A stretch of 64,000 nt of DNA from Bacteroidales bacterium (GTDB lineage: Bacteria; Bacteroidota; Bacteroidia; Bacteroidales; UBA932). The notes under the pieces are model-generated. The model saw only the letters and a list, made by a program, of their open reading frames with translations, was not told where the DNA came from and searched no databases. Both the position numbers and the translations under genes were made by a program. How positions within the stretch are numbered: the first letter of the stretch is position 1; every line of letters starts with the position of its first letter. Location: positions 1-64,000 of the forward strand of contig JAKSJN010000001.1 in NCBI GenBank assembly GCA_024402135.1, given 5' to 3'. Below, piece by piece: positions 33,377 to 54,416 of the stretch.

Positions 33377-33378
33377 TA

Positions 33379-36820: not shown

Positions 36821-39253
36821 ATGAAGTTAAAACGATTTACAATTCTTGCTGCGATCCCGGTGCTTGCGTGTTCATGCAATCAGGGAAGTAATCTCAAAAT
36901 CAGCGAAACTGATTTTACAAAGATTCAGCTCGAAGACCGTTTCTGGTCAGAGCGCATCGAGACTAATCGAACCGTCACGATTCCTGCCGCTCTCCATGAG
37001 TGTGACGTTAATGGACGAATCAGCAATTTCGCCAAGGCGGCCGGTCTGTTCGACGGTCCTCATATGGGCGATTTCTCATTCGATGACACCGACGTCTACA
37101 AGGTTCTCGAGGGTATCTCATTTTCACTTGCTGTAAAGTACGACCAGGCTCTCGACGCCCAGGCCGACAGCATCATTTCGATCATCGCCCAGGCACAGGA
37201 GGAGGATGGATACCTCACAACCTGCGTGACCAACGAGTGCGACCGTCTCCGCGGCTGGTGGGGAAATGGCCGCTGGGACAAGATCAACTCTCACGAACTC
37301 TATAACTCTGGCCATCTCATCGAGGCTGCCGTTGCACACTACCAGGCAACCGGCAAAAGCAACTTCCTCAATGTAGCCATAAAGAATGCCGACCTTATCT
37401 GTCAGGTATTCGGACCTGAGGAGGGACAGATCCATCGTCCATCCGGACATCCTATCGTCGAGATGGCACTTGCGAAACTCTACAACGTAACAGGGGAGCA
37501 GCGCTACCTTGACCTTGCAAAGTATTTCGTAGAGGAGACCGGCCGCTGCACTGATGGACATGCTCCAAGCGCATACAGCCAGGACCACATGCCTATCCTC
37601 CAGCAGGAAGAGATCGTAGGTCACGCAGTACGCGCAGGATATCTCTACAGCGGTGTAGCTGACGTAGCTTCGCTTACCGGCGATCATGAGTATTTCACCG
37701 CTCTTGAGCGCATCTGGAACAACATGGCATCGAAGAAGATGTACATCACCGGCGGAATCGGAAGCCGTCCACAGGGCGAGGGCTTCGGTCCGGAGTATGA
37801 GCTCCACAACATGGAGAACTACTGCGAGACTTGTGCATCGATCGCAAACGTATATTGGAACCACAGAATGTTCCTCGCCACCGGCGACGCAAAGTACATC
37901 GACGTTCTTGAGCGTGCGCTCTATAACGGCGTGATGGCCGGCGTGAGCCTTGATGGTTTCCACTTCTTCTATGACAACCCACTTTCATCAATGGGTCAGC
38001 ACGAGCGTGAGAAGTGGTTCGGCTGTGCATGCTGCCCCGGAAACATCACCCGCTTCGTTGCATCTGTGCCTAAATACATGTATGCGACCAAGGGTCACGA
38101 CATCTTCGTCAACCTCTATATAGCATCGACTTCAGTAGTAGATCTCGAGAACGGTTGCGTCAGCCTCAAGCAGGAGACCGCATATCCTTGGGAGGGCAAG
38201 GTCCGCATCAGCGTGAATCCTAGTGTCGAGGGCAGCTTCGCACTCAAGCTCCGCATCCCTGGCTGGGCTCAGGGCAAGCCTGTTCCTACCGACCTCTACA
38301 GCTACGCAAACGACGTAGAGCGCAAGTATGAGGTTCTCGTGAACGGCAAGAAGGTCAACAGCAAGCTCGTTGACGGTTATGTAAGCATCGACAAGGCATG
38401 GAAGGCCGGCGATGTTGTCGAGATCAGCCTGCCTATGACCGTGAACGTGACAGTTGCAAACGAGAAGGTCGAGGCCGACAAGGGTCTCGTCGAGCTCGAG
38501 CGCGGTCCTATCGTATACTGTCTCGAGGGCGCAGACATCGCTGACGGTCAGGTATTTGACAAGTACATCGATCCTGCACAGACTTTCTACAGCGAGTGGA
38601 AGGGCGATCTCCTCAAGGGTGTGAACGTTCTTCACGGCAAGGCCATGAAAGTTGCCGCTGACGGAAGCGAGACTGAGGTTGACATCACCGCCATCCCATA
38701 TTCAACATGGCAGAACCGCGGCAAGCAGAACATGGAGGTCTGGATCGCGACAGCACCTGAGTACACCACCGTCACCCCAGAGCCAACAATCGCTTCACGT
38801 GCTACCGCATACGAGTTCGAGAGCGAGGACAATGGGGAAGTGGTTGACTTCAGAGCAAAGGCCGAGGGCACACCTGCATGGGGTCTCAACGATCTCTGGG
38901 AGCCTAAGTCATCATCCGACATCAGCAAGCCATATTTCTATTTCTGGAGAAAGACAGGCTCTACCGAGCGCGTCAGCCTCATGTTCGACAAGATGGAGAC
39001 CATCAGCAGCACAGACATCTACTGGCTGGAGTTCGAGCACTACGACGGTGACTTCCGCGTTCCTGCTGAATACTCTGTTTATTATAGAAAGGGTGGATCA
39101 TGGGTTCCCGTGACTACCGATTCAAAATATGAGGTCAAGAAGGACTGCTGGAATCATGTCGATTTCCAGAAGGTTACCACCGACGGCCTCATGCTCCGCG
39201 TCAAGCTCCAGGAGGGCTTCTCAGGCGGAATCTGCGAATGGAAAGTAAACTAA
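36821..39253 (+). CDS. GH127-family beta-L-arabinofuranosidase lipoprotein
   Basis: The 810-residue protein starts with a lipoprotein signal (lipobox LAC, Cys17) and has the GH127 catalytic domain: ITFPAA-like VTIPAALHECDVNGR, DTDVYKVLEGISF, ITGGIGSRPQGEGFGPEYEL, then the zinc/catalytic residues in NYCETCASIANVYW (Glu336, Cys338) and FGCACCPGNI (Cys404-Cys405). In the Bifidobacterium enzyme HypBA1 the matching residues are a zinc site with a cysteine nucleophile, and the substrate is beta-L-arabinofuranose linked to hydroxyproline. A C-terminal beta-sandwich follows (residues about 660-810). It heads a locus with hydroxyproline-catabolic genes. No obvious -7 box lies upstream. Confidence 0.9.
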   Translation: MKLKRFTILAAIPVLACSCNQGSNLKISETDFTKIQLEDRFWSERIETNRTVTIPAALHECDVNGRISNFAKAAGLFDGPHMGDFSFDDTDVYKVLEGISFSLAVKYDQALDAQADSIISIIAQAQEEDGYLTTCVTNECDRLRGWWGNGRWDKINSHELYNSGHLIEAAVAHYQATGKSNFLNVAIKNADLICQVFGPEEGQIHRPSGHPIVEMALAKLYNVTGEQRYLDLAKYFVEETGRCTDGHAPSAYSQDHMPILQQEEIVGHAVRAGYLYSGVADVASLTGDHEYFTALERIWNNMASKKMYITGGIGSRPQGEGFGPEYELHNMENYCETCASIANVYWNHRMFLATGDAKYIDVLERALYNGVMAGVSLDGFHFFYDNPLSSMGQHEREKWFGCACCPGNITRFVASVPKYMYATKGHDIFVNLYIASTSVVDLENGCVSLKQETAYPWEGKVRISVNPSVEGSFALKLRIPGWAQGKPVPTDLYSYANDVERKYEVLVNGKKVNSKLVDGYVSIDKAWKAGDVVEISLPMTVNVTVANEKVEADKGLVELERGPIVYCLEGADIADGQVFDKYIDPAQTFYSEWKGDLLKGVNVLHGKAMKVAADGSETEVDITAIPYSTWQNRGKQNMEVWIATAPEYTTVTPEPTIASRATAYEFESEDNGEVVDFRAKAEGTPAWGLNDLWEPKSSSDISKPYFYFWRKTGSTERVSLMFDKMETISSTDIYWLEFEHYDGDFRVPAEYSVYYRKGGSWVPVTTDSKYEVKKDCWNHVDFQKVTTDGLMLRVKLQEGFSGGICEWKVN

Positions 39254-39288
39254 TTACTTATACTAACTAATTATTAATCAACAAACAA

Positions 39289-42200
39289 ATGAAACGTACA
39301 CTACAATTCTGTTTGTCCCTTCTGCTTCTTACCGTTGCTTTCCCAGCAATGGCAGGAATCGTTGTGAAGGGTACTGTAGTCGATCCAGCTGGCGAGCCAA
39401 TCATTGGCGGTGGCGTAGTTGAGGTCGGCACCAGAAACGGTGTCATCACCGACTTCGATGGTACCTATACCATCACTGTCGACGGCACCAGCTCGGTTCT
39501 CCAGTTCTCATGCATCGGTTACGAAACCGTTGACGTGACTGTTGGAAACCAGACCGTTATCAATGTTACTCTCCAGGAGGCTACCTCATTCCTCCAGGAG
39601 GCTGTAGCCATCGGTTACGGTACTCAGAAGAAGGCTGATATCACCTCTTCAGTACAGAGCGTAAAGGCTGACGCCTTCAACGCCGGTGCTATCAAGGATG
39701 CAGGTCAGCTCATCCAGGGTAAGGTCGCTGGTCTTTCAATCAACACCTCATCCGGAGACCCTACCGCTTCATCAGCTATCTCTCTTCGTGGTACTTCTTC
39801 ACTGCTCGGTACCTCTGATCCTCTCGTCCTCGTTGACGGTATCCCTGGATCACTTTCTACCGTTGCACCTGAGGATATCGAGTCTATCGACGTCCTGAAG
39901 GATGGTTCTGCTACCGCTATCTACGGTACCCGTGGTACCAACGGTGTCATCATCATCACCACCAGAAACGCTAAGCGTGACATGCCTGCTACCGTTGAGT
40001 ACAGCGGCTACGTTTCAGCTTCAACCTGGCTCAAGACTCCTGACTTCCTTGACGCAGCAACCCTTACCGACCTCCGTGCACAGGGTATGACCTTCGTAGG
40101 CGCCCGTGGCGAGTTCCTTGACAGCAAGGGTAACAACGCCGAGAAGGCTACCAACTGGCTCAAGGAGATCTCACAGACCGCTATCTCTCACAACCACAAC
40201 GTTTCAATCATGGGTGGTACCAAGCACAACACCTATACTGCAAACGTTACCTACAACAACAACGAGGGTACCATCATCGGTACCGGTACCTCTACCATGC
40301 GTGCACGCGCAATGGTTTCACAGTACCTCCTCAATGACATGCTCAAGATCTCTGGTGAGGTCATGGCAGATGAGACCAACAACAACTCTCGTTTCGATGC
40401 CAGCTACGTATATCGTCAGGCTTGTATCCACTCTCCACTCGAGCCGGTTTACGACGAGAACGGTGTTTACACCAAGCGTGACATCTACTTCTACCAGAAC
40501 CCTCTCTCTATGATCAACGAGCAGCTCGGTATGACCCGCAGCCGCAACGTCCGTTTCAACGGTACCGCCGAGCTCAAGCCTATCGACGCTCTTACCCTCA
40601 AGGCTGTTTACGTACGCAAGGGCCAGAGCAGAATCGGTGGTTACTATAACACCCGTCTCGACGAGTCTACCACCAAGGATGGCAGAAACGGTCAGGCTGG
40701 ACGTAACGCTTCAGACTACATCAGCAACATGCTCGAGCTCTCTGCAAGCTACGTACAGGACTTCGGAAATCATCATTTCACCGCAGTTGCAGGTTACTCT
40801 TACGAGGATCACTACAGTGAGAACTTCTCTATGAGCAACTACAACTTCCCTTCAGACGCATACACATGGAACAACATGGGTATGGGTGACGCTCTCAAGA
40901 ACGGTCAGGCAAGCATGTCATCATACATGCAGGAGACCAAGCTTATCGGTCTCTTCGCACGTGCTACCTACAACTACGCAGACCGCTACCTCCTCATGCT
41001 CTCTCTCCGTCGTGATGGTTCATCAAAGTTCGGTGCAGGTCAGAAGTGGGGTAACTTCCCAGGCGTATCATTCGGTTGGCGCCTCAACAACGAGGAGTTC
41101 ATGAAGGACATCAAGTGGCTCAACAACCTCAAGGTTCGTGCAGGTTTCGGTATCACCGGTATCGACGTGACCAGCCCTTACCAGTCACTTGCATCACTCC
41201 AGTACTCTGGTTCATACCGTTACAACGGCGAGTGGATCCAGACCCTCAGCGACGCTCGTAACGACAACCCTCTCCTCCACTGGGAGAAGAAGTTCGAGTA
41301 CAACCTCGGTATCGACTTCGCTGTTCTCGACGAGAGACTCAGCGGTAGCATCGATTTCTATCAGCGTGACACCAAGGACGCTCTCTACAACTACAGCGTT
41401 CCTGTTCCACCATACCTCTATGGTTCAATCATGGCTAACGGTGCTCACATCCAGAACCGTGGTGCCGAGGTTCTCATCAACGCAGTTCCTGTTGTAAACA
41501 AGGACTTCGAGTGGAACTTCTCAGTTACCGGTTCATTCAACCAGAACAAGCTTGTGTCACTTTCATCTGACACCTACAAGACTTCATCTGACTACTTCTA
41601 CACCGGTTACATCAGCGAGCCTGTCCAGAAGAACTCACATATCGTAAAGGTCGGCTGGCCTATCGGTCAGATCTACAACCTCAAGTCAATCGGTATTGAC
41701 GAGAGCGGTAAGTGGGTTGTCGAGAGACTCAAGAAGGTTGACGGTGTTCCTGTAAGCAAGTTCTATGATCTCGCAGAGAACGCATCTGAGGCTGACTACC
41801 AGGTTCTTGGTAATGGTGTTCCTAGATTCAACCTCGGTTGGACCAACAACTTCCGCTACAAGAACTTCGATCTCGCCATCGCAATGCGTGGCGCATTCGG
41901 CTTCCAGATCCTTAACATGCAGAAGCTCTTCTACGGTACCTCTAACTCAAGCTTCCAGTACAATGTCCTCAAGTGCGCTTATGACATGCACGATGCTGTA
42001 AACTCAATCACTGGTGAGAAGACTGGCACCCAGGCTCGCATCTCTGACGTTCAGCGTGCTGTTAGCTACTATGTTGAGAATGGTGACTATTGGAAGATCG
42101 ACAACGTGACCCTCGGTTACAACCTCAATCTCAAGAACGACTACCTCAAGAGAATCCGCATCTACGGTTCAGTTCACAACCTCGCAACCATCACCGGTTA

Positions 42201-42312
42201 CTCAGGTCTTGATCCAGAGGTTCCTTCAATCGGCTATACCGCAGGTACCGATGAGCGTGACAAGTATCCTACCATCCGTTCATACACCTTCGGTGTTAAT
42301 CTTACATTCTAA
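39289..42312 (+). CDS. SusC-family TonB-dependent outer-membrane transporter
   Basis: The 1007-residue protein has a signal peptide (MKRTLQFCLSLLLLTVAFPAMA), a carboxypeptidase-D-regulatory-like domain (VKGTVVDPAGEPIIGGGVVEV, residues about 24-105), the TonB-contact region (EAVAIGYGTQKK), a plug (ISLRGTSSLLGTSDPLVLVDG, DGSATAIYGTRGTNGVIIIT) and a barrel ending YTFGVNLTF. It forms the outer-membrane channel closed by the SusD lipoprotein next door and imports oligomers, here probably glycopeptides. Codon use is strongly biased to a few codons, which suggests high expression. Confidence 0.95.
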   Translation: MKRTLQFCLSLLLLTVAFPAMAGIVVKGTVVDPAGEPIIGGGVVEVGTRNGVITDFDGTYTITVDGTSSVLQFSCIGYETVDVTVGNQTVINVTLQEATSFLQEAVAIGYGTQKKADITSSVQSVKADAFNAGAIKDAGQLIQGKVAGLSINTSSGDPTASSAISLRGTSSLLGTSDPLVLVDGIPGSLSTVAPEDIESIDVLKDGSATAIYGTRGTNGVIIITTRNAKRDMPATVEYSGYVSASTWLKTPDFLDAATLTDLRAQGMTFVGARGEFLDSKGNNAEKATNWLKEISQTAISHNHNVSIMGGTKHNTYTANVTYNNNEGTIIGTGTSTMRARAMVSQYLLNDMLKISGEVMADETNNNSRFDASYVYRQACIHSPLEPVYDENGVYTKRDIYFYQNPLSMINEQLGMTRSRNVRFNGTAELKPIDALTLKAVYVRKGQSRIGGYYNTRLDESTTKDGRNGQAGRNASDYISNMLELSASYVQDFGNHHFTAVAGYSYEDHYSENFSMSNYNFPSDAYTWNNMGMGDALKNGQASMSSYMQETKLIGLFARATYNYADRYLLMLSLRRDGSSKFGAGQKWGNFPGVSFGWRLNNEEFMKDIKWLNNLKVRAGFGITGIDVTSPYQSLASLQYSGSYRYNGEWIQTLSDARNDNPLLHWEKKFEYNLGIDFAVLDERLSGSIDFYQRDTKDALYNYSVPVPPYLYGSIMANGAHIQNRGAEVLINAVPVVNKDFEWNFSVTGSFNQNKLVSLSSDTYKTSSDYFYTGYISEPVQKNSHIVKVGWPIGQIYNLKSIGIDESGKWVVERLKKVDGVPVSKFYDLAENASEADYQVLGNGVPRFNLGWTNNFRYKNFDLAIAMRGAFGFQILNMQKLFYGTSNSSFQYNVLKCAYDMHDAVNSITGEKTGTQARISDVQRAVSYYVENGDYWKIDNVTLGYNLNLKNDYLKRIRIYGSVHNLATITGYSGLDPEVPSIGYTAGTDERDKYPTIRSYTFGVNLTF

Positions 42313-42326: not shown

Positions 42327-44156
42327 ATGAAAAAGATATTTAATTCAATTATCGCTCTTGGTGCAGCATCAGTAATGCTCACAGGTTGCTTCGACCTTGA
42401 GGAGCATGCATACTCGGAGGTCGTTAAGAAGGACTTCACTCCTACTGACCAGGATGTAGTTGCACTTCTTTCAAAGTCATATTCTGAGTTCGGTGCATTC
42501 ATGGACTGGTACGGAATCTTCGACTGTATGGAAGAGGCTGCTGACGTTATCATCACTCCTACCCGTCCTAATGGTTGGGATGACGGTGGTGTATACAAGA
42601 GAATGCACTGGCACAAGTGGACCTCAGAGGACCCAGGTTCTCCAGAGTCTCTCTATTACTATGCCTTCTCAGGCATCAACTCAGCCAACAAGGTGCTTGA
42701 CCAGCTCAAGGACGGTTCACTTCCTGCAGGTGACCTTACCGAGTCTGCAATCGACGAGCTTAAGGCTGTACGTGCTACATGGTACTCAGTTCTCCTTGAC
42801 TCACACGGAAACGTTCCTATCGTTACCAAGTTCGCAATGGAGGAAGGTGAGGAGATCAAGCAGAGCTCTAGAAAGCGTGTTTACGAGTTCGTTACCAAGC
42901 AGCTCGAGGAAGTTATCGCAAACGGCCTCGTTTCTGACAAGAAGAGCGACTACACCCGTCTTAACATGTGGGGTGTGAAGATGGCCCTCATGAGAACCTA
43001 TCTCAACGCTGAGGTCTATACCGGAACTCCTGCATACGACAAGGCTCTCAAGCTTGCCGAGGATATCGTCAACAACGGTCCTTACTCACTCGCTCCTGAC
43101 TACTCTGACAACTTCAAGTGGAATGTTGACCAGACCAACCCTGAGATCATCTTCGGCATTCCTTACGATGAGATCTATCCTTCAGGTGAGCGTATCTTCT
43201 CTATGGGTATGAAGTTCTATCCTCCTAGCCAGGGTCGTGACCACTTCGGTTATGCTAACTCTACCTGGGGTGGAAACTGCGGTAACCCACAGTTCATCAA
43301 GTCATATGATCCAGAGGACAAGCGTCTCAACAAGACCTGGCTCATCGGACCTCAGATGAAGAACGACCCTACCAACAGCAAGAGCTCATACACTGCTGAT
43401 GACGTCAAGAACCAGAACATCGCATGGTACTGTCTCAACTACCTCCCTTCAATCTCAGGCGACAGCTCTGATGGAAGAAGCTTCACTCACATCGACTTCG
43501 GTTGCCGTCAGAACAAGTATCAGGTTAACCCTGCAGTTCCTAAGATGAACCACTGGGGCAATGACGTATCATGGTTCCGTCTCGCCGAGGCTTACTACAC
43601 CGCTGCCGAGTGTATTCTCCGTGGTGCTGCAAGCTCATATGGCAAGTCTGCTGCTGACTATGTAAACGCTGTACGTTCAAGATCAGTCGCTACTCCTCTT
43701 ACCGACGAAGACCTCAAGTCAACCGTTTCAAGAGTACAGTACGGTCTCCTCTCATACGGCGACATCAATGCTGACGATATCAAGAACTATGGTGTATTCC
43801 ACAACTGGGATGACAACAACAGAGCTGCAGAGCTCATCGCTTCACAGGTTGCTCAGCCTTCAGGAAGAGACAATGATCCTATCCTCCTCGCAGGTATGTA
43901 TGACGAGTGGGGCTACGAGTTCGCACTCGAGGGACTCCGCCGTCAGCAGATGATCCGCTTCGGCACCTTCTCTACCAGAAACTGGTTCAACCATGAGGCT
44001 GACGGTGACGACACCAAGGCTATCTTCCCAATCTCAAAGTCTGACCAGATGGACAACGAAAACCTCGCACAGAACCCTGGTTACGCTTCAGAGAACGGTA
44101 AGTACGTTACCGATTCAGGCATTCTCGATGAGAGCCCTATCCCAGCAAACATGTAA
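42327..44156 (+). CDS. SusD-family nutrient-binding lipoprotein
   Basis: The 609-residue lipoprotein (lipobox LTGC, Cys21) has the RagB/SusD helical repeat fold: FTPTDQDVVALLSKSYSEFG, YYAFSGINSANKVLDQL, AVRATWYSVLLDSHGNVPIV, GVKMALMRTYLNAEVYTG and the C-terminal WGYEFALEGLRRQQMIRFGTF. It caps the SusC transporter encoded 14 bp upstream and binds the substrate at the cell surface. Codon use is biased as in susC. Confidence 0.95.
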   Translation: MKKIFNSIIALGAASVMLTGCFDLEEHAYSEVVKKDFTPTDQDVVALLSKSYSEFGAFMDWYGIFDCMEEAADVIITPTRPNGWDDGGVYKRMHWHKWTSEDPGSPESLYYYAFSGINSANKVLDQLKDGSLPAGDLTESAIDELKAVRATWYSVLLDSHGNVPIVTKFAMEEGEEIKQSSRKRVYEFVTKQLEEVIANGLVSDKKSDYTRLNMWGVKMALMRTYLNAEVYTGTPAYDKALKLAEDIVNNGPYSLAPDYSDNFKWNVDQTNPEIIFGIPYDEIYPSGERIFSMGMKFYPPSQGRDHFGYANSTWGGNCGNPQFIKSYDPEDKRLNKTWLIGPQMKNDPTNSKSSYTADDVKNQNIAWYCLNYLPSISGDSSDGRSFTHIDFGCRQNKYQVNPAVPKMNHWGNDVSWFRLAEAYYTAAECILRGAASSYGKSAADYVNAVRSRSVATPLTDEDLKSTVSRVQYGLLSYGDINADDIKNYGVFHNWDDNNRAAELIASQVAQPSGRDNDPILLAGMYDEWGYEFALEGLRRQQMIRFGTFSTRNWFNHEADGDDTKAIFPISKSDQMDNENLAQNPGYASENGKYVTDSGILDESPIPANM

Positions 44157-44169: not shown

Positions 44170-44754
44170 ATGAAAATGATCAAGAAATATTTTGCTGCAG
44201 CTCTCGCTGCTCTTGCATTCGTTGCTTGCGCACCAGAGTATGATACAGACAAGCTCCCTGTCGAGATCGAGTATCCCGAGATGGAGGGCAAGGGTTTCCT
44301 CATCAGCGATGACCAGCCAACCGTCCATACCTACGAGTACTCTGTTACTTCCGAGGGTGTGAACATCACAGCTACCGTTTCAAAGTCACACGGTGACTGG
44401 GCTGTCGGTTACTTCGTTCTCCAGAGCAAGGCAATCGCTGTCGCTCTTGGAAACGTGGCATTCAGCGACATCGACACCTTCTACCCAATCGAGCAGGATG
44501 GCTCAAAGTCTGGCAACTGGAATTCCGGTTATCTCGGACAGTGGGTTGATGCAAAGGGTAACGGCAAGGGCCACAACTGGTCATCAGGTCATGTTTACTG
44601 GTTCTACGAGCAGTACGCTACCTACGAGATCGGTGTCAAGGATGCTTTCGCAATCGGCATCAATGGCAGCAACGCTGTAGTAGGCGAGACCATCACCTCT
44701 AAGAACATTCTCAAGGGCGTTCCTTTCAATGTAACCATCAAGGTTATCGACTAA
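44170..44754 (+). CDS. Surface lipoprotein of the SusCD locus
   Basis: The 194-residue lipoprotein (FVACAPEY) has a mostly beta C-terminal part with repeated Gly/Trp/Asn (GNWNSGYLGQWVDAKGNGKG) that resembles DUF4859-like domains. Its place directly after susD (13 bp) is that of surface glycan-binding proteins, so substrate binding is likely. A strong terminator follows. Confidence 0.7.
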   Translation: MKMIKKYFAAALAALAFVACAPEYDTDKLPVEIEYPEMEGKGFLISDDQPTVHTYEYSVTSEGVNITATVSKSHGDWAVGYFVLQSKAIAVALGNVAFSDIDTFYPIEQDGSKSGNWNSGYLGQWVDAKGNGKGHNWSSGHVYWFYEQYATYEIGVKDAFAIGINGSNAVVGETITSKNILKGVPFNVTIKVID

Positions 44755-44771
44755 GCCCCATTATCTTCAAT

Positions 44772-44803: not shown

Positions 44804-44811
44804 CTTAAACA

Positions 44812-46539
44812 ATGAAAAAAATCAGATTTATTGCTGCATTCGTCGCCCTGATCTTTCTTGCGTCCTGCGAGAAGGAGCCAAAGGTCGTCGAACTGAGCAT
44901 CAGCGAAACCAGCGTCACCCTTGCCAGAAGCGGCAGCGATGCGCGCGCTTACGTCAAAATCACATCCAACCTGTCCTGGGAGGCCGAGTCAGATGCGTCG
45001 TGGATCAAAACTGTGCCTACATCAGGAGAAGCAGGCAAGACATATAGCGTTATCATTGCGGCAGACAGCAATGCCGAGCCGGTTTCAAGAACTGCAAGCA
45101 TCAAGGTGACTGCCGGTTCAGTCGTCAAGACAATCGAGGTCAATCAGATGCCGGGAGTCAGGAGGCTCACACCTTCCGATGTACCGAATTATGAGAAGAT
45201 TTATATCCCGCTTGAATTCAGGGGAGACGGTTTCCTTTCCAGTGACGGCAGGTGGTTCTTCGGAAGAAGCGCTCAGTCCGAGCATTTCATCCTGTTCTGG
45301 GAAGCCGGATACGGAGAGAATGGCGACAGGTCGCCGTCCCTGTGCGCAGATCCTAGGTTCAAGGTCAATATTGACAATCTTCTCAAATGGGCCGAGAAGT
45401 GCTATGACAAGTACATCAATGTCATGGACTTCACCGAGAAAGGCAAATCCCAGCTCGAAAAATACAAGTTCGAGATTTTCCTCCATTACCAGGAGGAATG
45501 GGCGGCATACGGATCAGGTCAGGACAACGTTGTCGGCTGCCTGTGGCTGAACCCTGACGCCGCACGCGACAATTCCACGATCGCACATGAAATAGGACAT
45601 TCATTCCAGTATCAGACATACTGTGACCGTATATACAACAAGATTGTTCCAGACGATCTATCAACTTCATTCAGATACGTAAGACCCGAGATGGGCACCG
45701 GATTCTGGGAGCAGACAGCCCAGTGGCAGTCGATGGTCATGTGCCCGGAGGTAATCTTTACCAACTGGTATTTCGACTTCTATGGCTATCCTTCCGAAAC
45801 CAGCGATGCGTCGGATCTTGGCTGCTTTGTGAGAAACACCCACAGGCATGTCCTCCACGAAATTACCCGATACAGTAACTACTTCATCCATTTCTACTGG
45901 GTTGACAGATATGGTATCGACTTCATCTCGAAGATCTGGAAAAATTCCATTGCGCCGCAGGATGCCCTGGAAACAAGCATGAGCGTAAACGGAATGTCTG
46001 TCGCAGATCTCAACCAGGATCTGTACAGCTATGCTGCAAGATGTGCGACCTGGGATTTCTCTATCTGTTCGACTGAAGGTCTGAAGCATATTGGCGAGAT
46101 TACCTGGTCAGGAACTGCCGTAGAGGATGGCTACATAAAAGTATCCAGGGACCGTGCGCCGGAGGCGACTGGATTCAATGTAATAACACTTGAGGGCTTC
46201 AAGGCCGGCGATGTGGTGACGATGGATCTGACAGGACTTCCCGAGGACAAGGACTACGGCATCGTAACAGACCCTTCCGCAGGTGGCTGGACTATAGGAT
46301 TCGTCGCTCTTGACAGGAACTATTCAAGAAAATACAGCCCGTCGGTCACCGCCGGCAAGTCAACTGACGGCAAGGCTCAACTGACCTGGGAGATACCTGA
46401 AGGAACATCGAAACTTTGGGCTGTAGTATCTGCTACACCTGAAAAGTATTTCACCCATTACTGGGATGAAAACAACAGCAATGACCGCCTCTGGCCTTAC
46501 AAGGTCAAGTTTGACGGAGCAAGCCCTGTCAATAACTGA
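44812..46539 (+). CDS. Surface lipoprotein metallopeptidase (BACON plus DUF6055-like)
   Basis: The 575-residue lipoprotein (LASCEK) has an N-terminal BACON domain (VELSISETSVTLARSGSDAR, residues about 27-115), which often binds glycans or mucin-like partners, and a DUF6055-like catalytic region with the zinc motif HEIGH (residues 259-263, AHEIGHSFQYQ) plus downstream acidic residues (GTGFWEQTAQW). It likely cleaves (glyco)proteins at the cell surface. A role in opening hydroxyproline-rich glycoproteins fits its neighbours; the exact specificity is unknown. Confidence 0.8.
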   Translation: MKKIRFIAAFVALIFLASCEKEPKVVELSISETSVTLARSGSDARAYVKITSNLSWEAESDASWIKTVPTSGEAGKTYSVIIAADSNAEPVSRTASIKVTAGSVVKTIEVNQMPGVRRLTPSDVPNYEKIYIPLEFRGDGFLSSDGRWFFGRSAQSEHFILFWEAGYGENGDRSPSLCADPRFKVNIDNLLKWAEKCYDKYINVMDFTEKGKSQLEKYKFEIFLHYQEEWAAYGSGQDNVVGCLWLNPDAARDNSTIAHEIGHSFQYQTYCDRIYNKIVPDDLSTSFRYVRPEMGTGFWEQTAQWQSMVMCPEVIFTNWYFDFYGYPSETSDASDLGCFVRNTHRHVLHEITRYSNYFIHFYWVDRYGIDFISKIWKNSIAPQDALETSMSVNGMSVADLNQDLYSYAARCATWDFSICSTEGLKHIGEITWSGTAVEDGYIKVSRDRAPEATGFNVITLEGFKAGDVVTMDLTGLPEDKDYGIVTDPSAGGWTIGFVALDRNYSRKYSPSVTAGKSTDGKAQLTWEIPEGTSKLWAVVSATPEKYFTHYWDENNSNDRLWPYKVKFDGASPVNN

Positions 46540-46654: not shown

Positions 46655-48283
46655 ATGAGAAACGCAATCCTCAATTATCCTCTCCCGGCTAACGAGCCTG
46701 TGAAAGCTTATCTTCCAGGTTCGCCAGAGAGAATCGCTCTCGATGCAGAGCTCAAGCGTCAGCATGACACCGTAGTGGAGATTCCGCTCATCATCGGCGG
46801 CAAGGAAATCTACACCGGCAACATCAAGACCGTTGTATGCCCTCACGACCACAAGCATGTACTCGCTAAGTACCATGTAGCTGGCGAGAAGGAAATCAAG
46901 ATGGCCATCGACGCTGCCATGGAGGCTCGCAAGGTATGGGCTAACACCGACTGGACAACCCGCGCTGCAATCATCATGAAGTGCGCCGAGCTCCTTGCTA
47001 CCAAGTACCGTCCTATCCTTAACGCTGCCACCATGCTCGGCCAGAGCAAGAACATCTATCAGGCAGAGATCGACTCAGCATGTGAGACCATCGACTTCTT
47101 CCGTTACAATGTTCATTACGCTTCCAAGCTCTATGCAGTTCAGCCTAAGAACGGAAACGGCATCATCGACAGCACCGAGTATCGTCCTCTCGAGGGTTTC
47201 GTTCTCGCAGTCGCTCCTTTCAACTTCACCTCTATCGCATGTAACCTTAACATGACTCCAGTGCTCCTGGGTAACACCACCATCTGGAAGCCATCTACCA
47301 CCGCTACCCTCAGCAACTACTATCTCATGAAGATGTTCGAGGAGGCTGGTCTCCCTGCAGGTGTAGTTAACTTCGTACCTAGCCGCGGTGCCGAGATCGG
47401 CAAGATCTGCTGCGAGAGCAAGCACCTCGCCGGTATCCACTTCACCGGTTCTACCAAGACTTTCCAGAGCCTCTGGAAGTCAGTAGGCGAGAACATCGCA
47501 AACTATGTTTCATACCCTCGTCTCGTAGGTGAGACCGGCGGTAAGGACTATATCTTCGTACACCCTAGCTCAGACGTCGCTGCCGTTGCTCATGCAGCAT
47601 TCACCGGCGCATACGAGTTCCAGGGCCAGAAGTGTTCAGCTGCTTCCCGCATGTACTGTCCTAAGAGCCTCTGGCCAGCAGTGCTCGAGAAGATGAAGCA
47701 GTTTGCTTCCGAGGTCAAGATGGGTGATGTAATGGATTCTGAGAACTTCATCAATGCTGTCATCGACGAGGCTTCATTCGACAACATCGTTTCATACATC
47801 GAGTACGCAAAGAACTCTCCTGACGCTGAGATCGTGATGGGTGGCAAGTGCGACAAGACCGTCGGCTACTTCGTTGAGCCTACCGTCATCGAGACCACCG
47901 ATCCTCACTTCAAGAGCATGGAAGAGGAAATCTTCGGACCTGTCCTCACCGTTTATCCTTACGACGATGACAAGGTTTACGAGACCGTTGACCTCCTTGA
48001 CAAAACCTCTCCTTACGGACTTACCGGTTCAGTATTCGGAAAGGACCGTCTCGAGGTAGAGAAGATTGCTGATCTCCTTACCTACACCGCAGGTAACTTC
48101 TACATCAACGACCGTCCTACCGGAGCAGTCGTAGGTATGCAGCCATTCGGCGGAAGCCGTGCTTCAGGTACCAACGACAAGGCAGGTGGTGAGTTCAACC
48201 TCATCCGTTGGGTACTCCCTAGAGTTATCAAGGAGACTCTCGTTTCTCCTACCGACTACCATTACACTTACATGAAGAAGTAA
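46655..48283 (+). CDS. pruA: L-glutamate gamma-semialdehyde (P5C) dehydrogenase
   Basis: The 542-residue aldehyde dehydrogenase oxidises pyrroline-5-carboxylate/glutamate semialdehyde to glutamate with NAD+. It contains FVLAVAPFNFTSIACNLN, KPSTTATLSNYYLMKMFEEAG, FTGSTKTFQSLW, the general-base segment LVGETGGKDYIFV and the catalytic cysteine in GQKCSAASRMY, followed by PTGAVVGMQPFGGSRASGTN. Length and motifs fit the stand-alone P5C dehydrogenase (no PutA fusion). Its product sits directly downstream of the HypD reaction encoded further on, which supports a hydroxyproline-to-glutamate route. Confidence 0.95.
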   Translation: MRNAILNYPLPANEPVKAYLPGSPERIALDAELKRQHDTVVEIPLIIGGKEIYTGNIKTVVCPHDHKHVLAKYHVAGEKEIKMAIDAAMEARKVWANTDWTTRAAIIMKCAELLATKYRPILNAATMLGQSKNIYQAEIDSACETIDFFRYNVHYASKLYAVQPKNGNGIIDSTEYRPLEGFVLAVAPFNFTSIACNLNMTPVLLGNTTIWKPSTTATLSNYYLMKMFEEAGLPAGVVNFVPSRGAEIGKICCESKHLAGIHFTGSTKTFQSLWKSVGENIANYVSYPRLVGETGGKDYIFVHPSSDVAAVAHAAFTGAYEFQGQKCSAASRMYCPKSLWPAVLEKMKQFASEVKMGDVMDSENFINAVIDEASFDNIVSYIEYAKNSPDAEIVMGGKCDKTVGYFVEPTVIETTDPHFKSMEEEIFGPVLTVYPYDDDKVYETVDLLDKTSPYGLTGSVFGKDRLEVEKIADLLTYTAGNFYINDRPTGAVVGMQPFGGSRASGTNDKAGGEFNLIRWVLPRVIKETLVSPTDYHYTYMKK

Positions 48284-48373: not shown

Positions 48374-49702
48374 ATGAAAAAAGGCATTCTCTCCATAGCT
48401 GCGGCGATTCTCATGCTTTCCGGCTGCAGCGGACAGAAAGATACACAGGCAGTCATCGGAGACGGTACAGTGACAAGCATCTGCACCGAGGATGTTGACT
48501 ACGATACATACTTCACTCCTGATCGTCTCCGCATCAACATGGTGTTTGCGGGCAACAGCGAAAAGCAGGAGTTCTTCCTCAGCGATATCTACAAGGAGTG
48601 CGCTTGGGCAGGTTCACCGAACTCGCTCATCGACAAGCTGGGCTATGGCCAGTACTTCTTCGAGGTTTTCAGCGGGGACAAGCTCATCTTCTCGAGAGGT
48701 TTCTCAACTCTGTTCGAGGAATGGCGCACCACCGACCAGGCAAGGCATGTAGACATGGCAGCAAACCAGTGTGTATGGATGCCATGTCCAAAGGAAAAGG
48801 TTACAATAGTTTTCTACTACCGTATCCGCAAGACAGGGCTTTTCGAAAAGGCTGCTTCTTTCGAAATAGATCCGAATGACACACACATCATCCCGGGACC
48901 AGTGAATGACTACAATGTCGTTCCTCTTCAGGTCAAGGGTGACATGGCCCACAAGGTTGACCTTGTCTTCTCAGGCGAAGCCTACACCAAGGACCAGATG
49001 GGCAAGCTTAACAAAGACGCAAACAAATTCATGGAGTATCTTTTCTCCATGGAACCATATAAGAGCCATCGTGATGACTTCAATGTCTGGCTCATCGAGA
49101 GTGTATCAGAGGAGGGAGGCGTAGACAAGCCTCAGTTCGGCGAGTGGCGCAACACCGCATTCAACTCCGGCTTCGACACTTTCTACGAGGACCGCTATCT
49201 TACCATCCAGGATCACCGCAAGATCGGAGATGTATACAGCGGAACACCATTCGACGCGATCTTCGTCATCGCAAACGAAACCAAGTACGGCGGTGGCGGC
49301 ATTTTCTATTCATATGCGATGGGAACCGCTGACAACGAGCTCTCGAACGAGGTATTCATCCATGAGTTCGGCCACAGCTTCGCAGGTCTTGGCGACGAGT
49401 ACTACAAGTCTCCTGTGGCTTACGAAGGATACTATCCACTGGACGTGGAGCCTTGGGAGCCGAACATCACCACTCTCGTGGATTTCGAGTCCAAGTGGGC
49501 AGACATGGTCGACGAGAGCACACCTGTCCCTACGACTGATTCAACTCTCAATGTCGTCGGTCTCTACGAAGGCGCCGGCTATATGGCAAAGGACATCTAC
49601 CGTCCTTTCTGGGAGTGCCGAATGATCAACAACACTGCACCTGCGTTCTGTCCGGTATGCCAGCGTGCAATCTCAAGAATGATTGAATATTACACAAAAT
49701 AA
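48374..49702 (+). CDS. M64-family (IgA-peptidase-like) metallopeptidase lipoprotein
   Basis: The 442-residue lipoprotein (LSGCSG) has an N-terminal M64 domain (residues about 25-170) and the catalytic domain with HEFGHSFAGLGDEYY (HExxH at residues 330-334) and a GxGD-type downstream acidic residue. Family M64 zinc peptidases include the Clostridium ramosum IgA peptidase, which cuts a proline-rich hinge. A preference for Pro/Hyp-rich stretches would suit this locus, but it is not shown by the sequence. Confidence 0.9.
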   Translation: MKKGILSIAAAILMLSGCSGQKDTQAVIGDGTVTSICTEDVDYDTYFTPDRLRINMVFAGNSEKQEFFLSDIYKECAWAGSPNSLIDKLGYGQYFFEVFSGDKLIFSRGFSTLFEEWRTTDQARHVDMAANQCVWMPCPKEKVTIVFYYRIRKTGLFEKAASFEIDPNDTHIIPGPVNDYNVVPLQVKGDMAHKVDLVFSGEAYTKDQMGKLNKDANKFMEYLFSMEPYKSHRDDFNVWLIESVSEEGGVDKPQFGEWRNTAFNSGFDTFYEDRYLTIQDHRKIGDVYSGTPFDAIFVIANETKYGGGGIFYSYAMGTADNELSNEVFIHEFGHSFAGLGDEYYKSPVAYEGYYPLDVEPWEPNITTLVDFESKWADMVDESTPVPTTDSTLNVVGLYEGAGYMAKDIYRPFWECRMINNTAPAFCPVCQRAISRMIEYYTK

Positions 49703-49711: not shown

Positions 49712-51103
49712 ATGTTCAGCAAGGAAACCTACATATCACGCCGCGCCGAGCTCAAGAAGGCTATGGGCAGCGGTCTGCTGCTCTTCCTCGGCAATGACGA
49801 GAGCGCAATGAACTACGAGGACAATACCTACATGTTCCGCCAGGACAGTACCTTCTCGTATTATTTCGGTCTTGACTACTCAGGACTCGCAGCTGTCATC
49901 GACGTTGACAATGACGAAGAGATCATCTTCGGAAACGAGCTTACCATCGACGACTTCGTATGGATGGGCACACAGCCTACAGTAGCGGAAAAAAGCGCAA
50001 TCGTAGGTGTTGCAAAGAGCATGGCTCTCAGCAGCCTCGAGTCTTATCTTCACGCAGCCATCAACAAGGGCCAGAAGGTTCATTTCCTTCCTCCTTACCG
50101 TCCTGAGCACAAGCTCAAGATCGCCGAGCTTCTCGGAATCGCTCCGGCTGCACAGAAGATGTATGCAAGCGTAGAGTTCGTCAAGGCTGTAGTGAACATG
50201 AGAAATCACAAGACCGACGAGGAAATCGCCGAGATTACCAAGGCAGTGGACATCTCTACCCGTATGCATCTCACCGCGTACCGCATGGCAAAGCCAGGTG
50301 TACATGAGTGCGAGATTGCTGCTGCTGTCGAGCAGGTTGCATGCGAGTGCGGCGGACGTCTTTCGTTCCCTACCATCGCCACCAGCCATGGCCACGTACT
50401 CCACAACCACGGATTCGTACATACACTCAAGGAGGGCGACATCTTCCTTCTCGACGCCGGTGCAGAGACACCTCTCCATTACTCAGGAGACCTTTCATCA
50501 GCATGCCCTGTAAGCGGCAAGTTCACAGAGCAGCAGGAAATGATCTACAACATCCATCTCGACTCATTCCAGGCTGCAGTCGACACCCTCAAGCCAGGCG
50601 TTCCTTTCAAGGAGGCTCACCTCGCAGCCGCTACAAAGATCGTCGAGGGCATGAAGGGCCTCGGCATGATGAAGGGCGACGCACGTGAGGCTGCCGAGAT
50701 CGGTGCATACGCACTGTTCTTCCCATGCGGTCTCGGCCACATGATGGGTCTCGATGTTCACGACATGGAGAACCTCGGCGAGCAGTACGTAGGCTATCCT
50801 GAGGGAGTGAAGAAGAGCACCCAGTTCGGATTCAAGTCCCTCAGACTTGCACGCCCACTGGAGAAGGGATTCGTATTCACCGTCGAGCCAGGTATCTACT
50901 TCATGCCTGAACTTATCGACAAGTGGCACGCAGAGAAGCAGTTCGCTGACTTCATCAACTATGATGAGGTTGAGAAGTGGAAGGGTTTCTCAGGTCTCCG
51001 CAATGAACTTGACTATATGATCACAGACAAGGGCGCCGAGCTCATGGGTACAATCAAGAAGCCTATGACCATCGCCGAGGTCTATGAAGCAATGAATAAA
51101 TAG
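49712..51103 (+). CDS. pepP: Aminopeptidase P (Xaa-Pro aminopeptidase, M24B)
   Basis: The 463-residue protein has a creatinase-like N-terminal domain (residues about 1-170) and the pita-bread M24 domain with the metal ligands in FLLDAGAETPLHYSGDLSSACPV, GLGHMMGLDVHD, FTVEPGIYF and GLRNELDYM. It removes the N-terminal residue before proline, and in relatives also before hydroxyproline, so it would release free Pro and Hyp from imported peptides. It has no signal peptide and is cytosolic. It sits 9 bp after the M64 gene and 20 bp before hypD. Confidence 0.92.
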   Translation: MFSKETYISRRAELKKAMGSGLLLFLGNDESAMNYEDNTYMFRQDSTFSYYFGLDYSGLAAVIDVDNDEEIIFGNELTIDDFVWMGTQPTVAEKSAIVGVAKSMALSSLESYLHAAINKGQKVHFLPPYRPEHKLKIAELLGIAPAAQKMYASVEFVKAVVNMRNHKTDEEIAEITKAVDISTRMHLTAYRMAKPGVHECEIAAAVEQVACECGGRLSFPTIATSHGHVLHNHGFVHTLKEGDIFLLDAGAETPLHYSGDLSSACPVSGKFTEQQEMIYNIHLDSFQAAVDTLKPGVPFKEAHLAAATKIVEGMKGLGMMKGDAREAAEIGAYALFFPCGLGHMMGLDVHDMENLGEQYVGYPEGVKKSTQFGFKSLRLARPLEKGFVFTVEPGIYFMPELIDKWHAEKQFADFINYDEVEKWKGFSGLRNELDYMITDKGAELMGTIKKPMTIAEVYEAMNK

Positions 51104-51123: not shown

Positions 51124-53523
51124 ATGAATTTCGCACTGAAATACCCAGGTAACGATGGTGGAATGAACGATCGTATCAAGCGTCTCCGCAACGAGAGCAT
51201 CGAGACTCCTACCACCCTTACCATCGAGCGTGCTCTTATCGAGACCGCTTTCTACAAGGAGAACTACGGCAAGATGCCTCTTCCTGTCCTCCGTGCATCA
51301 AACTTCCTTGAGATCTGCAAGAAGAAGACCATCTATATCGGCAAGGACGAGCTCATCGTCGGCGAGCGTGGACCGCTTCCAAAGGCTGTTCCTACATTCC
51401 CTGAGCTTACATGCCATTCGGTAGAGGACCTTCACGTCCTCAATACACGTTCGCTCCAGCCTTATCTCATCAGCCAGGAGGACATCGACACCTACGAGCG
51501 TGAGGTTATTCCTTACTGGGAGGGCAAGACCCAGCGTGAGCGCATCTTCAACCACGTCCCTAAGGAGTGGGAGGAGGCATACCACGCAGGAGTGTTCACC
51601 GAGTTCATGGAGCAGCGTGCCGCAGGTCACACCTCAATGGACGGAAAACTCTACAGGGAGGGACTTCTTGATGTCAAGGAAAGAATCGCAAAGAAGATTG
51701 CAAGCCTTGATTACATCAACGACCCTGAGGCTACAGACAAGAACGACGAGCTTACCGCAATGAGCATCAGCTGCGACGCTGCAATCGTGTTCGCAGAGCG
51801 CCATGCAGAGCTCGCCGAGAAGATGGCTGCCGAGGAGACCGACCCTCAGCGCAAGGCTGAGCTTGAGAAGATCGCAGAAGTATGCCACTGGGTTCCTGCA
51901 CATGCACCACGTGACATGTGGGAGGCTATCCAGATGTACTGGTTCGTTCACCTTGGAACCGTAACCGAGCTCAACGGCTGGGATTCAATGAACCCTGGTC
52001 ACATCGACCAGCATCTCTGGCCATTCTACCAGAAGCAGCTCGCCGAGGGTACCATCACCCGCGACCAGGCTAAGGAACTTCTCTCATGTCTCTGGATCAA
52101 GTTCAACAATCAGCCAGCTCCTCCAAAGGTTGGTATCACCGCAAAGGAGTCAGGTACCTACAACGACTTCACAAACATCAATATCGGCGGTGTCACCCGT
52201 GACGGCGAGGATGGTTCGAATGAGCTTTCATATGTAATCCTTGAGATCCAGGAAGAGCTCCACGAGCTTCAGCCAGGTCTCTCCATCCATATCTCGGAGA
52301 AGACCCCGGACGAGTTCCTTCTCGCCGGCTGCCGCGTGATCCGTCAGGGCTTCGGCTATCCTTCAGTATTCAACCCTGACACCTATACCAAGGAGCTCAT
52401 GCGTCAGGGCAAGAGCCGCGAGGACGCAAACGAAGGCGGTTGCTCAGGCTGTATCGAGGTAGGTGCATTCGGCAAGGAGGCTTACCTTCTGACCGGTTAC
52501 CTCAATACTCCAAAGATTCTCGAGATCACTCTCAACAACGGTATCGACCCTGAGACAGGCAAGCTTATCGGTCTCCAGACCGGTGATCCTCGTGAGTTCA
52601 AGAGCTTCGAGGAGGTATATGAGGCTTGGCACAAGCAGATGGTACACTTCGTGAACCTCAAGCTCGCTGTAAACAACTACATCGAGAGAATGTTCTCGCT
52701 GTATGCTCCGGCAACCTTCCTCAGCCTCTACATCGACGACTGTATCGAGAAGGGCCGCGACTACTACAGCGGTGGTGCACGCTACAACACCACCTATATC
52801 CAGTGTACCGGTCTCGGAACCATCACCGACTGCTTCACAACCATCAAGAAGCATATCTTCGAAGAGAAAAAGTTCACCATGGACCAGATGCTCGAGGCTC
52901 TGAAGAAGAACTTCGAGGGAGAGGAGAAGATGCGTCAGTACATCCGCAACCATACTCCATTCTTCGGAAACGACGACGAGTATGCCGATACAATAGCTGT
53001 ACGCGTTTACGAGGATCTCATCAAGGCTATCGAGGGACGTCCTAACACCCGCGGCGGCAAGACATATCTCAACATGCTCTCTACAACCTGCCACAACTAC
53101 TTCGGAAGCGTCTGCGGCGCAACACCTAACGGTCGTTTGGCACACTTCGCAATCAGCGATGGTACCTCTCCATCACATGGTTCAGACTGCCAGGGACCGA
53201 CCTCAGTGATCAAGTCACTCGGCAAGCTCGACCAGACTCAGTCAGGCGGTACCCTCCTCAATGTCCGTTTCGTTCCTGCACTCCTCAAGAGAGACGAGGA
53301 CCTCAAGAAGTTCTCTTCACTCATCCGTGAGTACTTCAAGCTCGGTGGACACCATATCCAGTTCAACATCGTTGACACAGCAACCCTCGAGGACGCTCAG
53401 CTGCATCCAGACAACTACCGCGACCTTCTTGTCCGCGTAGCAGGATACTCTGACTACTTCAACGATATGACCGCACAGCTCCAGAACGAGATCATCGCAC
53501 GTACCGAGAACGAGGAACTCTAG
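51124..53523 (+). CDS. hypD: trans-4-hydroxy-L-proline dehydratase (glycyl radical enzyme)
   Basis: The 799-residue glycyl radical enzyme closely follows the Clostridioides difficile HypD pattern: FTEFMEQRAAGHT, YWFVHLGTVTELNGWDSM, LWIKFNNQPAPPKVGITAKES, the active-site cysteine and base in EGGCSGCIEVG (Cys443, Glu445), GTITDCFTTIKK and the glycyl radical loop LLVRVAGYSDYF (Gly774). It removes water from trans-4-hydroxyproline to give pyrroline-5-carboxylate. It is preceded by pepP and followed by its activase by 2 bp. It needs anoxic conditions, consistent with a gut anaerobe. Confidence 0.92.
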   Translation: MNFALKYPGNDGGMNDRIKRLRNESIETPTTLTIERALIETAFYKENYGKMPLPVLRASNFLEICKKKTIYIGKDELIVGERGPLPKAVPTFPELTCHSVEDLHVLNTRSLQPYLISQEDIDTYEREVIPYWEGKTQRERIFNHVPKEWEEAYHAGVFTEFMEQRAAGHTSMDGKLYREGLLDVKERIAKKIASLDYINDPEATDKNDELTAMSISCDAAIVFAERHAELAEKMAAEETDPQRKAELEKIAEVCHWVPAHAPRDMWEAIQMYWFVHLGTVTELNGWDSMNPGHIDQHLWPFYQKQLAEGTITRDQAKELLSCLWIKFNNQPAPPKVGITAKESGTYNDFTNINIGGVTRDGEDGSNELSYVILEIQEELHELQPGLSIHISEKTPDEFLLAGCRVIRQGFGYPSVFNPDTYTKELMRQGKSREDANEGGCSGCIEVGAFGKEAYLLTGYLNTPKILEITLNNGIDPETGKLIGLQTGDPREFKSFEEVYEAWHKQMVHFVNLKLAVNNYIERMFSLYAPATFLSLYIDDCIEKGRDYYSGGARYNTTYIQCTGLGTITDCFTTIKKHIFEEKKFTMDQMLEALKKNFEGEEKMRQYIRNHTPFFGNDDEYADTIAVRVYEDLIKAIEGRPNTRGGKTYLNMLSTTCHNYFGSVCGATPNGRLAHFAISDGTSPSHGSDCQGPTSVIKSLGKLDQTQSGGTLLNVRFVPALLKRDEDLKKFSSLIREYFKLGGHHIQFNIVDTATLEDAQLHPDNYRDLLVRVAGYSDYFNDMTAQLQNEIIARTENEEL

Positions 53524-53525
53524 TA

Positions 53526-54416
53526 ATGAGCAATCTGATATTCGATATCAAGCGTTACGCCATCAACGACGGACCGGGCATCCGCACAACCATCTTCATG
53601 AAGGGGTGCCCGCTCCGTTGCGTATGGTGTCACAATCCTGAAAGCCAGCGTCCCCAGCGCCAGCGTCTGTTCAAGGAGCAGAAATGTATCGGCTGCCTGA
53701 GCTGTGTCGAGGCCTGTCCGAACGGACTTGATCCACGTGAGCTGAAGGATTGCATCAACTGCGGAAAGTGCGTCGAGGAATGTCCTGCAATCGCGCTCGA
53801 GATGTGCGGCAAGGAATGGGGCATGGACGAACTGATGGCAGTCATCGAGAAGGAAAGGGGAGTCATGACAGGCAGCGGCGGTGGTGTGACCATCTGCGGT
53901 GGCGAGCCTCTCATGCATCCGGATTATCTTCTCGAAATCCTTAAAGAACTTGGTAACAGGGGATTCCATCGCTGCGTGGACACGACTCTCTTCGCTCCTC
54001 AGGATGTGATAAGGAAGGTCGTTGCCAATTCGGAGCTTCTCCTTGTTGACCTTAAGCATATGGACGCCGATAAGCACAAGTTCTACACAGGCGTTTCCAA
54101 CGAGATCATTCTCGAGAACATCCGTCTGGCCGCCGAGCTTGGAGCTGAGTTCTACATCCGTATTCCTCTTATCGTCGGAGTCAATGCCGACGAAGAGAAC
54201 ATAGAAAAGTCTGCATCGTTCCTTGAGTCTCTTCCATGGAAGACAAAGCAGGTAAACCTGCTTCCATACCACGATATCGGCAAGGGAAAGCATGCACGTA
54301 TGCACACAACATACAACCCTGACAATATCGATATGCGGGAGCCATCGAAAGAACAGCTCGAAAGAAGCGCTGCCATTTTCGAAGCACACGGCATACATGC
54401 AATAATAGGTGGCTAA
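53526..54416 (+). CDS. HypD-activating radical SAM enzyme
   Basis: The 296-residue protein has the activase radical-SAM motif GCPLRCVWCHNPES (C-x3-C-x2-C, about residues 29-42) and two 4Fe-4S ferredoxin clusters (CIGCLSCVEACP and CINCGKCVEECP) typical of larger glycyl-radical activases. It uses S-adenosylmethionine to place the radical on Gly774 of HypD. Its ATG is 2 bp after the hypD stop. Confidence 0.94.
   Translation: MSNLIFDIKRYAINDGPGIRTTIFMKGCPLRCVWCHNPESQRPQRQRLFKEQKCIGCLSCVEACPNGLDPRELKDCINCGKCVEECPAIALEMCGKEWGMDELMAVIEKERGVMTGSGGGVTICGGEPLMHPDYLLEILKELGNRGFHRCVDTTLFAPQDVIRKVVANSELLLVDLKHMDADKHKFYTGVSNEIILENIRLAAELGAEFYIRIPLIVGVNADEENIEKSASFLESLPWKTKQVNLLPYHDIGKGKHARMHTTYNPDNIDMREPSKEQLERSAAIFEAHGIHAIIGG

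Follow-up and report, generated by a model that had tools for sequence, protein, structure and literature searches.

The 64,000-nucleotide stretch analysed here (the window; Bacteroidales bacterium, contig JAKSJN010000001.1) contains a row of ten genes, all on the + strand between positions 36,821 and 54,416, which probably forms a compact locus for using hydroxyproline-rich glycoproteins of plants, with extensins as the most likely substrate. The row encodes a GH127 lipoprotein, a SusC/SusD pair, a small surface lipoprotein, an exported metallopeptidase with a DUF6055 domain, PruA, an exported M64 metallopeptidase, aminopeptidase P (PepP) and HypD with its activating enzyme (Table 1). An adjacent susC-susD pair together with linked exported degradative enzymes, the arrangement by which a polysaccharide utilisation locus (PUL) of the SusC/SusD type is recognised, is present. 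By analogy, the locus would work like a PUL that has been extended to protein.

The substrate, the cell location of the products, the order of the steps and their co-regulation are what we infer from this gene content. Surface lipoproteins (SusD, the DUF6055 and M64 peptidases and GH127) would bind the glycoprotein, cleave its backbone and trim beta-L-arabinofuranose (beta-L-Araf) off hydroxyproline (Hyp), and SusC would take in glycopeptides and oligosaccharides. Aminopeptidase P would clip residues preceding Pro or Hyp, HypD and its activase would dehydrate free trans-4-hydroxy-L-proline to pyrroline-5-carboxylate (P5C), and PruA would oxidise P5C to glutamate. Contig C33 of this genome carries a second locus, which would add GH51, a second GH127, GH97, GH27 and a second DUF6055 protein, and whose araBAD, symporter and mutarotase genes would handle the released arabinose.

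What was established directly, as described below, is which genes are present, which residues they conserve, how DUF6055 is predicted to fold, and how the genes are arranged and co-occur across genomes. Every gene named in an initial annotation, made from the sequence alone, is present and in frame, and Pfam and NCBIfam profiles confirmed the identity of all but the small lipoprotein. The single strand and short gaps that it described also hold, with intergenic distances of 2–115 bp (eleven genes, to 55,461, if a GalE gene is counted), as do its two exported HExxH peptidases, HEIGH in DUF6055 and HEFGH in M64. Lipoprotein-type signals, judged by eye, are found at the N-termini of GH127, SusD, the 194-aa protein, DUF6055 and M64. 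The strong codon bias noted initially did not stand: G+C content at third codon positions, the sole codon measure computed, was 0.57–0.66 in the row vs 0.58–0.61 in the flanking MnmE and SpeA. A sister genome, a metagenome-assembled genome (MAG) from horse faeces, is collinear with the row, which is there split between two contigs that share about 55 bases (window coordinates) at their ends, within PruA. This collinearity makes misassembly an unlikely source of the gene arrangement.

The GH127 enzyme is a probable beta-L-arabinofuranosidase, with Hyp-linked or terminal beta-L-Araf as its predicted target. Its residues E320, E336, C338, C404 and C405 align with E322, E338, C340, C417 and C418 of HypBA1, which we take to be acid/base and zinc ligands, in agreement with the zinc/cysteine residues first noted. 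A Cys3-Glu site has been described for GH127 (PMC10850190). Against solved structures the protein scored 665 bits with 6ex6, 437 with 4qjy, 342 with 5mqo and 338 with HypBA1 (3wkw). Relatives with 59–62% identity lie directly before SusC in seven other genomes (G204, G216, G416, G606, G470, G330 and G462). Aceric acid hydrolase, a GH127 activity on rhamnogalacturonan II, was considered and rejected on an NF049879 score of 483.7 bits (cut-off 950).

It has been reported in 2026 that the metallopeptidase Svx degrades carrot extensin and spares mucin and concanavalin A (PMC13164431). The DUF6055 protein of the window is proposed to be an extensin endopeptidase related to Svx. It carries the gluzincin pattern HEXXH-X(n)-E, and H259, E260, H263 and E300 are invariant in 21 of 21 aligned DUF6055 sequences. 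The spacing from HEXXH to the Glu is 20–47 across this set, 36 in the window and 22 in Svx. A first Foldseek comparison of the predicted model returned mainly BACON-domain matches, and a closer second structural comparison gave a metallopeptidase fold match. DUF6055 was also seen fused to GH27 (alpha-galactosidase) or GH97 domains (L141:17218-19737, L149:9670-12867); the family GH97 includes alpha-galactosidases. The fusions in relatives fit the Ser-alpha-Gal of extensin, and suggest that the peptidase and alpha-galactose removal work together.

At the positions mapped, HypD shares D278, K326, S334, D339, F340, C434, E436 and Y450 with its C. difficile counterpart, and it also has the glycyl-radical motif. 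Position 292, Asp in the published description, is Phe in both chains when mapped. The best profile of the activase is NF043069 (318.9 bits, under its cut-off of 425). Among the best 80 HypD loci, out of at least 577 confirmed HypD stretches and many of them cut by contig ends, the activase was matched in 70, PepP in 48, PruA in 20 and DUF6055 in 6. GalE, initially thought to handle the galactose of extensin, was matched in these 80 solely in the sister of the window; its membership of the unit is doubtful and the suggested galactose role is unsupported. Galactose appears better accounted for by the GH27 and GH97 genes of the second locus.

HypD loci were extended and annotated where their contig also held DUF6055 or GH127. 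SusC/SusD and DUF6055 are joined to PruA-PepP-HypD in six further genomes (G199–G202, G204 and L088), and five of the six have GH127 plus GH51, GH27, GH97 or araBAD nearby. In G199–G202 the order is SusC (68–69% identical to that of the window), SusD (51–61%), lipoprotein, DUF6055, PruA, PepP and HypD, with SusC upstream of HypD and longer relatives of the 194-aa lipoprotein in the same slot. G202, G201 and G200 have GH127, GH51, CotH, an M61 peptidase and a GH27-DUF6055 fusion (found by Pfam in G202 and by alignment in the other two), followed by SusC, SusD (60–61%), lipoprotein, DUF6055, PruA (split in two in G201), an uncharacterised lipoprotein, PepP and HypD. G199 reads SusC (69%), SusD (51%), lipoprotein, DUF6055, PruA, M64 (67%), PepP, HypD and activase, and then a GH97-DUF6055 fusion, GH127 and GH51. 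On one 62.8 kb contig, G204 (Muribaculaceae) holds two GH127 genes, GH43, GH97, SusC/SusD, two DUF6055 genes, M64, mutarotase, symporter, AraR, araD, araA, an araB-like kinase, PruA, PepP, HypD and activase. The stretch available from L088 shows SusC (cut), SusD, DUF6055, PruA, PepP and HypD. The sister counts as a further joined case only if its two contigs adjoin. DUF6055 also lies about 9–12 kb from HypD in G207 and G210 and about 17 kb from it in G433; these were not counted as joined because the reference SusC, SusD and GH127 were unmatched in the stretches around HypD and DUF6055.

A quick tree built from 81 HypD rows places the eight joined loci (window, sister and the six) within a 25-row set, in three groups and with three state changes; so few changes were seen in 0 of 500 shuffles. 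The joined loci, that of the window included, are thus spread, as far as this tree goes, over three HypD clades. A search for the same gene set in other Bacteroidales, called for by the initial annotation, gave a divided answer, as the parts are unlinked in most HypD genomes examined. The linkage of deglycosylation, import, proteolysis and Hyp catabolism that it had put forward is supported by the six joined genomes and by the Svx-related DUF6055.

The uncharacterised lipoprotein between PruA and PepP has a predicted fold that matches Pro-Pro endopeptidases (PPEP), at middling model confidence (pLDDT 68.9), and its sequence gave only chance-level hits against the PDB. Lipoproteins of this PPEP-like family, which has HExxH and no Pfam or NCBIfam match, occur near PepP and HypD (L075:7680-8549, L032, L064, L084, L087, L088 and others), and are joined to GH97 in G416 and G470.

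Co-occurrence was examined in 199 genomes of the family of the window, with HypD counted at scores of at least 700 bits, joined neighbours among them, and full-length GH127 at 900 bits or more; all p values for co-occurrence ignore phylogeny. HypD was found in 42 of the 199. Full-length GH127 was found in 10, the window's genome included, and HypD in all 10 (Fisher 7e-8); DUF6055 was found in four genomes, each with HypD (p 0.0018). Where other family genomes have both, their GH127 and HypD genes lie on separate contigs or far apart. The 18 other sampled congeners gave no DUF6055 and no HypD hit above the cut-off; five of them have a shorter GH127 (44–49% identical). Each of the 51 genomes in the close-HypD set has DUF6055 at some position. 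Two cultured strains, Prevotella communis E15-14 and Prevotella aff. ruminicola Tc2-24, have HypD, with DUF6055/GH127 loci elsewhere in the genome.

On contig C33, one strand carries GH51, araB, araA, araD, symporter, mutarotase, GH127 (72% identical to the G202 homologue) and GH97. The divergent strand carries a hybrid two-component regulator gene, SusC, SusD, metH, the gene for methylenetetrahydrofolate reductase, GH27 and DUF6055. Several of the labels on C33 were given by similarity alone. G204 holds on one contig most of what the window's genome has in its two loci, except GH51 and GH27. The placement of metH and the methylenetetrahydrofolate reductase gene between SusD and GH27 (L159:7223-11698) is odd.

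The surface module is also found away from HypD. Across 393 order-wide genomes there were 18 SusD places outside the window, six of them within 10 kb of DUF6055, one of these DUF6055 being a fragment at a contig end and below the cut-off. G416, G606, G470, G330 and G462 (families f59, f111, f3, f78 and f111), annotated because of their nearness to DUF6055, all share the order GH127 (59–62% identical to the window's)-SusC-SusD-DUF6055; in four of them a lipoprotein gene precedes DUF6055. GH43, a second GH127, GH97, GH27, CotH, a hybrid two-component system (HTCS) regulator and a DPP4-like S9 peptidase are variously nearby; labels were given by similarity to annotated reference proteins, with Pfam for ten proteins. 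The same core occurs in G216, in G076 with an extra gene behind GH127, and in G088, also with the extra gene, as far as the contig goes. DUF6055 was not seen in the stretches around SusD in G433:C19, G456, G415, G507, G576 and G462:C21. G416 combines the core with the DPP4-like S9 peptidase (L204:5220-20000, L205:1-8121); the order search gave no HypD match in it at E 1e-150, and the surface part stands without Hyp catabolism. In 15 genomes searched with both queries, hand-picked and with five joined loci among them, GH127 lay within 15 kb of 17 of 42 DUF6055 hits (about 1.6 expected). Without the five joined-locus genomes this was so for 8 of 30 hits vs 1.2 expected, in 5 of 10 genomes.

From these loci we lean slightly towards a broader view, in which herbivore-gut bacteria of the order hold a class of extensin glycoprotein loci. 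These would combine a glycan-gated Svx-like DUF6055 peptidase (in some cases fused to GH27 or GH97), PPEP-like lipoproteins or M64, GH127/GH51/GH43 and SusC/SusD, and feed L-arabinose use and anaerobic HypD catabolism. Plant wall protein would then be a main Hyp source for gut HypD in herbivores.

Several observations weigh against an extensin locus acting as one unit, and some of them favour two adjacent but functionally separate units, a GH127 PUL for arabinan-type side chains and a Hyp operon that could use any Hyp-containing peptide, even one from host collagen. Most of the HypD genomes examined keep the Hyp operon by itself: of 51 (the window's own and 50 with a HypD contig of at least 40 kb), 8 have DUF6055 no more than 20 kb from HypD, and 6 of these 8, window included, show it in a SusCD/GH127 setting. 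In the family, 32 of the 42 HypD genomes lack full-length GH127 and 38 lack DUF6055, and the order-wide association is modest (HypD in 12 of 20 genomes with DUF6055 of at least 200 bits vs 134 of 393 overall, p 0.014). Gaps of 115 and 90 bp lie either side of PruA. A perfect 11-pair hairpin separates the gene of the 194-aa lipoprotein from DUF6055, with a T-run that stops about 6 bases ahead of the DUF6055 start codon. Because so strong a hairpin precedes DUF6055, a single transcript is not assured, although the hairpin may attenuate instead of ending transcription; it is the strongest entry in a scan for terminator-like elements that found 19 vs 13.3 expected, a class hardly enriched. The 20 window proteins scanned with profiles included no regulator; PULs commonly have one, yet it is not a defining feature. 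In the sister genome (L164) the lipoprotein and DUF6055 genes are present in a divergent version (DUF6055 48% identical), without a DNA match over 44,262–46,413. Since the flanks match well (87–93% DNA identity), alleles may have been exchanged at the surface peptidase. The DUF6055 protein scores 48.6 bits with the Svx profile NF040510, below the cut-off of 625 (the GH27-DUF6055 fusion, at 78.8, is also under it), and is by these scores a distant relative of Svx, not an Svx member. Nevertheless, two separate units appear unlikely. The same joining recurs in the six other genomes and three HypD clades with differing gene orders and additions, the gene at the junction is the Svx-related peptidase, GH127 goes with HypD in 10 of 10 family genomes, and the 18 congeners lack DUF6055 as well as any HypD above the cut-off. 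The initial annotation would have given up the linkage if the two parts were separate in nearly all relatives; the 8 of 51 count goes some way in that direction, and the family GH127 count runs the other way.

The nature of the substrate was weighed in the same manner. Arabinogalactan-proteins (AGPs) with Hyp-linked type II arabinogalactan too contain Hyp, and the GH43 genes in relatives are without subfamily assignment. The closest solved GH127 is 6ex6, presumably Bacteroides thetaiotaomicron BT3674, probably the nearest characterised GH127; if so, this also tells against extensin. BT3674 is reported to contribute to larch arabinogalactan degradation, and differs from the window in this role, peptidase or Hyp genes being unnamed in the part of the report available (PMC10850190). 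Even so, AGPs instead of extensin are a distinctly improbable substrate: in 60 Pfam-scanned proteins, part of the loci genes, the glycosidases over cut-off are GH127, GH51, GH43, GH27 and GH97, with no GH16, GH30 or GH35, and the GH27 and GH97 fusions fit Ser-alpha-Gal. Furthermore, the carbohydrate site of Svx, the relative of DUF6055, is said to disfavour beta-glycosylated AGPs (PMC10815107, PMC9266454). Other Hyp-rich glycoproteins, such as solanaceous lectin, proline-rich protein or arabinosylated peptides, share Hyp-O-arabinosides. The sequence singles out none of them and nothing specific speaks against them, whereas extensin is what Svx was tested on; they are very improbable substrates.

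An extensin locus of this kind resembles several known systems in part. HypBA1 and HypBA2 of Bifidobacterium longum, the latter a GH121 beta-L-arabinobiosidase, include a GH127 with the same zinc/cysteine active site, and target beta-L-arabino-oligosaccharides of plant Hyp-rich glycoproteins (PMC7263609). The B. longum cluster consists of three enzymes and an ABC transporter, whereas the window adds SusC/SusD, exported peptidases and Hyp catabolism. Svx of Pectobacterium is a related metallopeptidase with HEXXH and a downstream Glu. It is a secreted virulence factor, whereas the distantly related DUF6055 of the window is of lipoprotein type, has a BACON domain and sits in a nutrient-uptake locus, and its relatives, unlike Svx, are fused to GH27 or GH97. 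The HypD/PruA route for trans-4-hydroxyproline is represented by a HypD over the curated cut-off, the activase and PruA. In clostridial use of HypD, P5C is reported to be reduced to proline in Stickland fermentation (PMC11574389); in the window, by contrast, PruA suggests glutamate as the product, and the genes follow a SusC/SusD locus. In Latescibacteria, GH127 has been taken to signal extensin use, with an ABC transporter, and linked SusC/SusD, an Svx-type peptidase and HypD are unnamed in the available part of that report (PMC4454575). In searches of openly licensed PMC papers, judged by title and the start of the abstract, neither a described extensin locus with Hyp catabolism nor a PUL also attacking plant cell-wall protein was apparent.

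PULs have already been described for many plant glycans. If the proposed function is true, the locus would represent a route, as yet little known, by which gut microbes obtain nutrients from the protein of plant cell walls. It would also give HypD a plant substrate besides collagen and DUF6055 a function, and provide enzymes able to open extensin-crosslinked cell walls.

Table 1. Features of the gene row and its downstream neighbour, in window coordinates.
Feature	Position	Strand	Support
GH127 lipoprotein, probable beta-L-arabinofuranosidase (Hyp-linked or terminal beta-L-Araf)	36821..39253	+	PF07944/PF20736/PF20737
SusC-type TonB-dependent outer-membrane transporter	39289..42312	+	TIGR04056 755 bits, cut-off 368
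SusD-type surface lipoprotein, predicted glycan/glycopeptide binding	42327..44156	+	PF07980, PF14322
Small surface lipoprotein, 194 aa, SusE/F position	44170..44754	+	no Pfam match; lipobox by eye
Terminator- or attenuator-like hairpin with T-run	44772..44805	+	11-pair stem, -21 kcal/mol, z -7.3 vs shuffles
BACON+DUF6055 exported metallopeptidase, Svx-related, proposed extensin endopeptidase	44812..46539	+	HEIGH motif
PruA, L-glutamate gamma-semialdehyde (P5C) dehydrogenase	46655..48283	+	TIGR01236 762.9 bits, cut-off 613.6
Exported M64 (IgA-peptidase family) metallopeptidase lipoprotein	48374..49702	+	PF09471, PF16217; HEFGH; 4df9 327 bits
Aminopeptidase P (M24B), predicted Xaa-Pro/Hyp peptide cleavage	49712..51103	+	PF00557, PF05195
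HypD	51124..53523	+	NF043068 1158.3 bits, cut-off 1100; 6vxc 936 bits
HypD-activating radical SAM enzyme	53526..54416	+	TIGR02494 314.8 bits, cut-off 174.35
GalE-like epimerase, 25 bp downstream of activase, membership doubtful	54442..55461	+	PF16363/PF01370

A scan for sigma-70-like promoters gave 13 vs 16.0 expected from shuffles, no excess, and TTTG-N19-22-TAnnTTTG, the Bacteroides-type promoter pattern, was found 0 times in the locus and twice in the window vs 0.56 expected. A promoter is therefore not claimed. ARAGORN found no tRNA in the window, and a 5S rRNA is located at 12771-12881 on the - strand.

The row is flanked by a divergent mnmE on one side and a polyamine operon on the other. 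Upstream of mnmE, at 31493-34714, an AAA_21 ATPase and RloB-like pair and a HipA-like kinase gene are found, a possible defence or toxin-antitoxin system. The polyamine operon (55911-61564) encodes a decarboxylase, spermidine synthase, an agmatinase-like and a saccharopine-dehydrogenase-like protein and a second decarboxylase.

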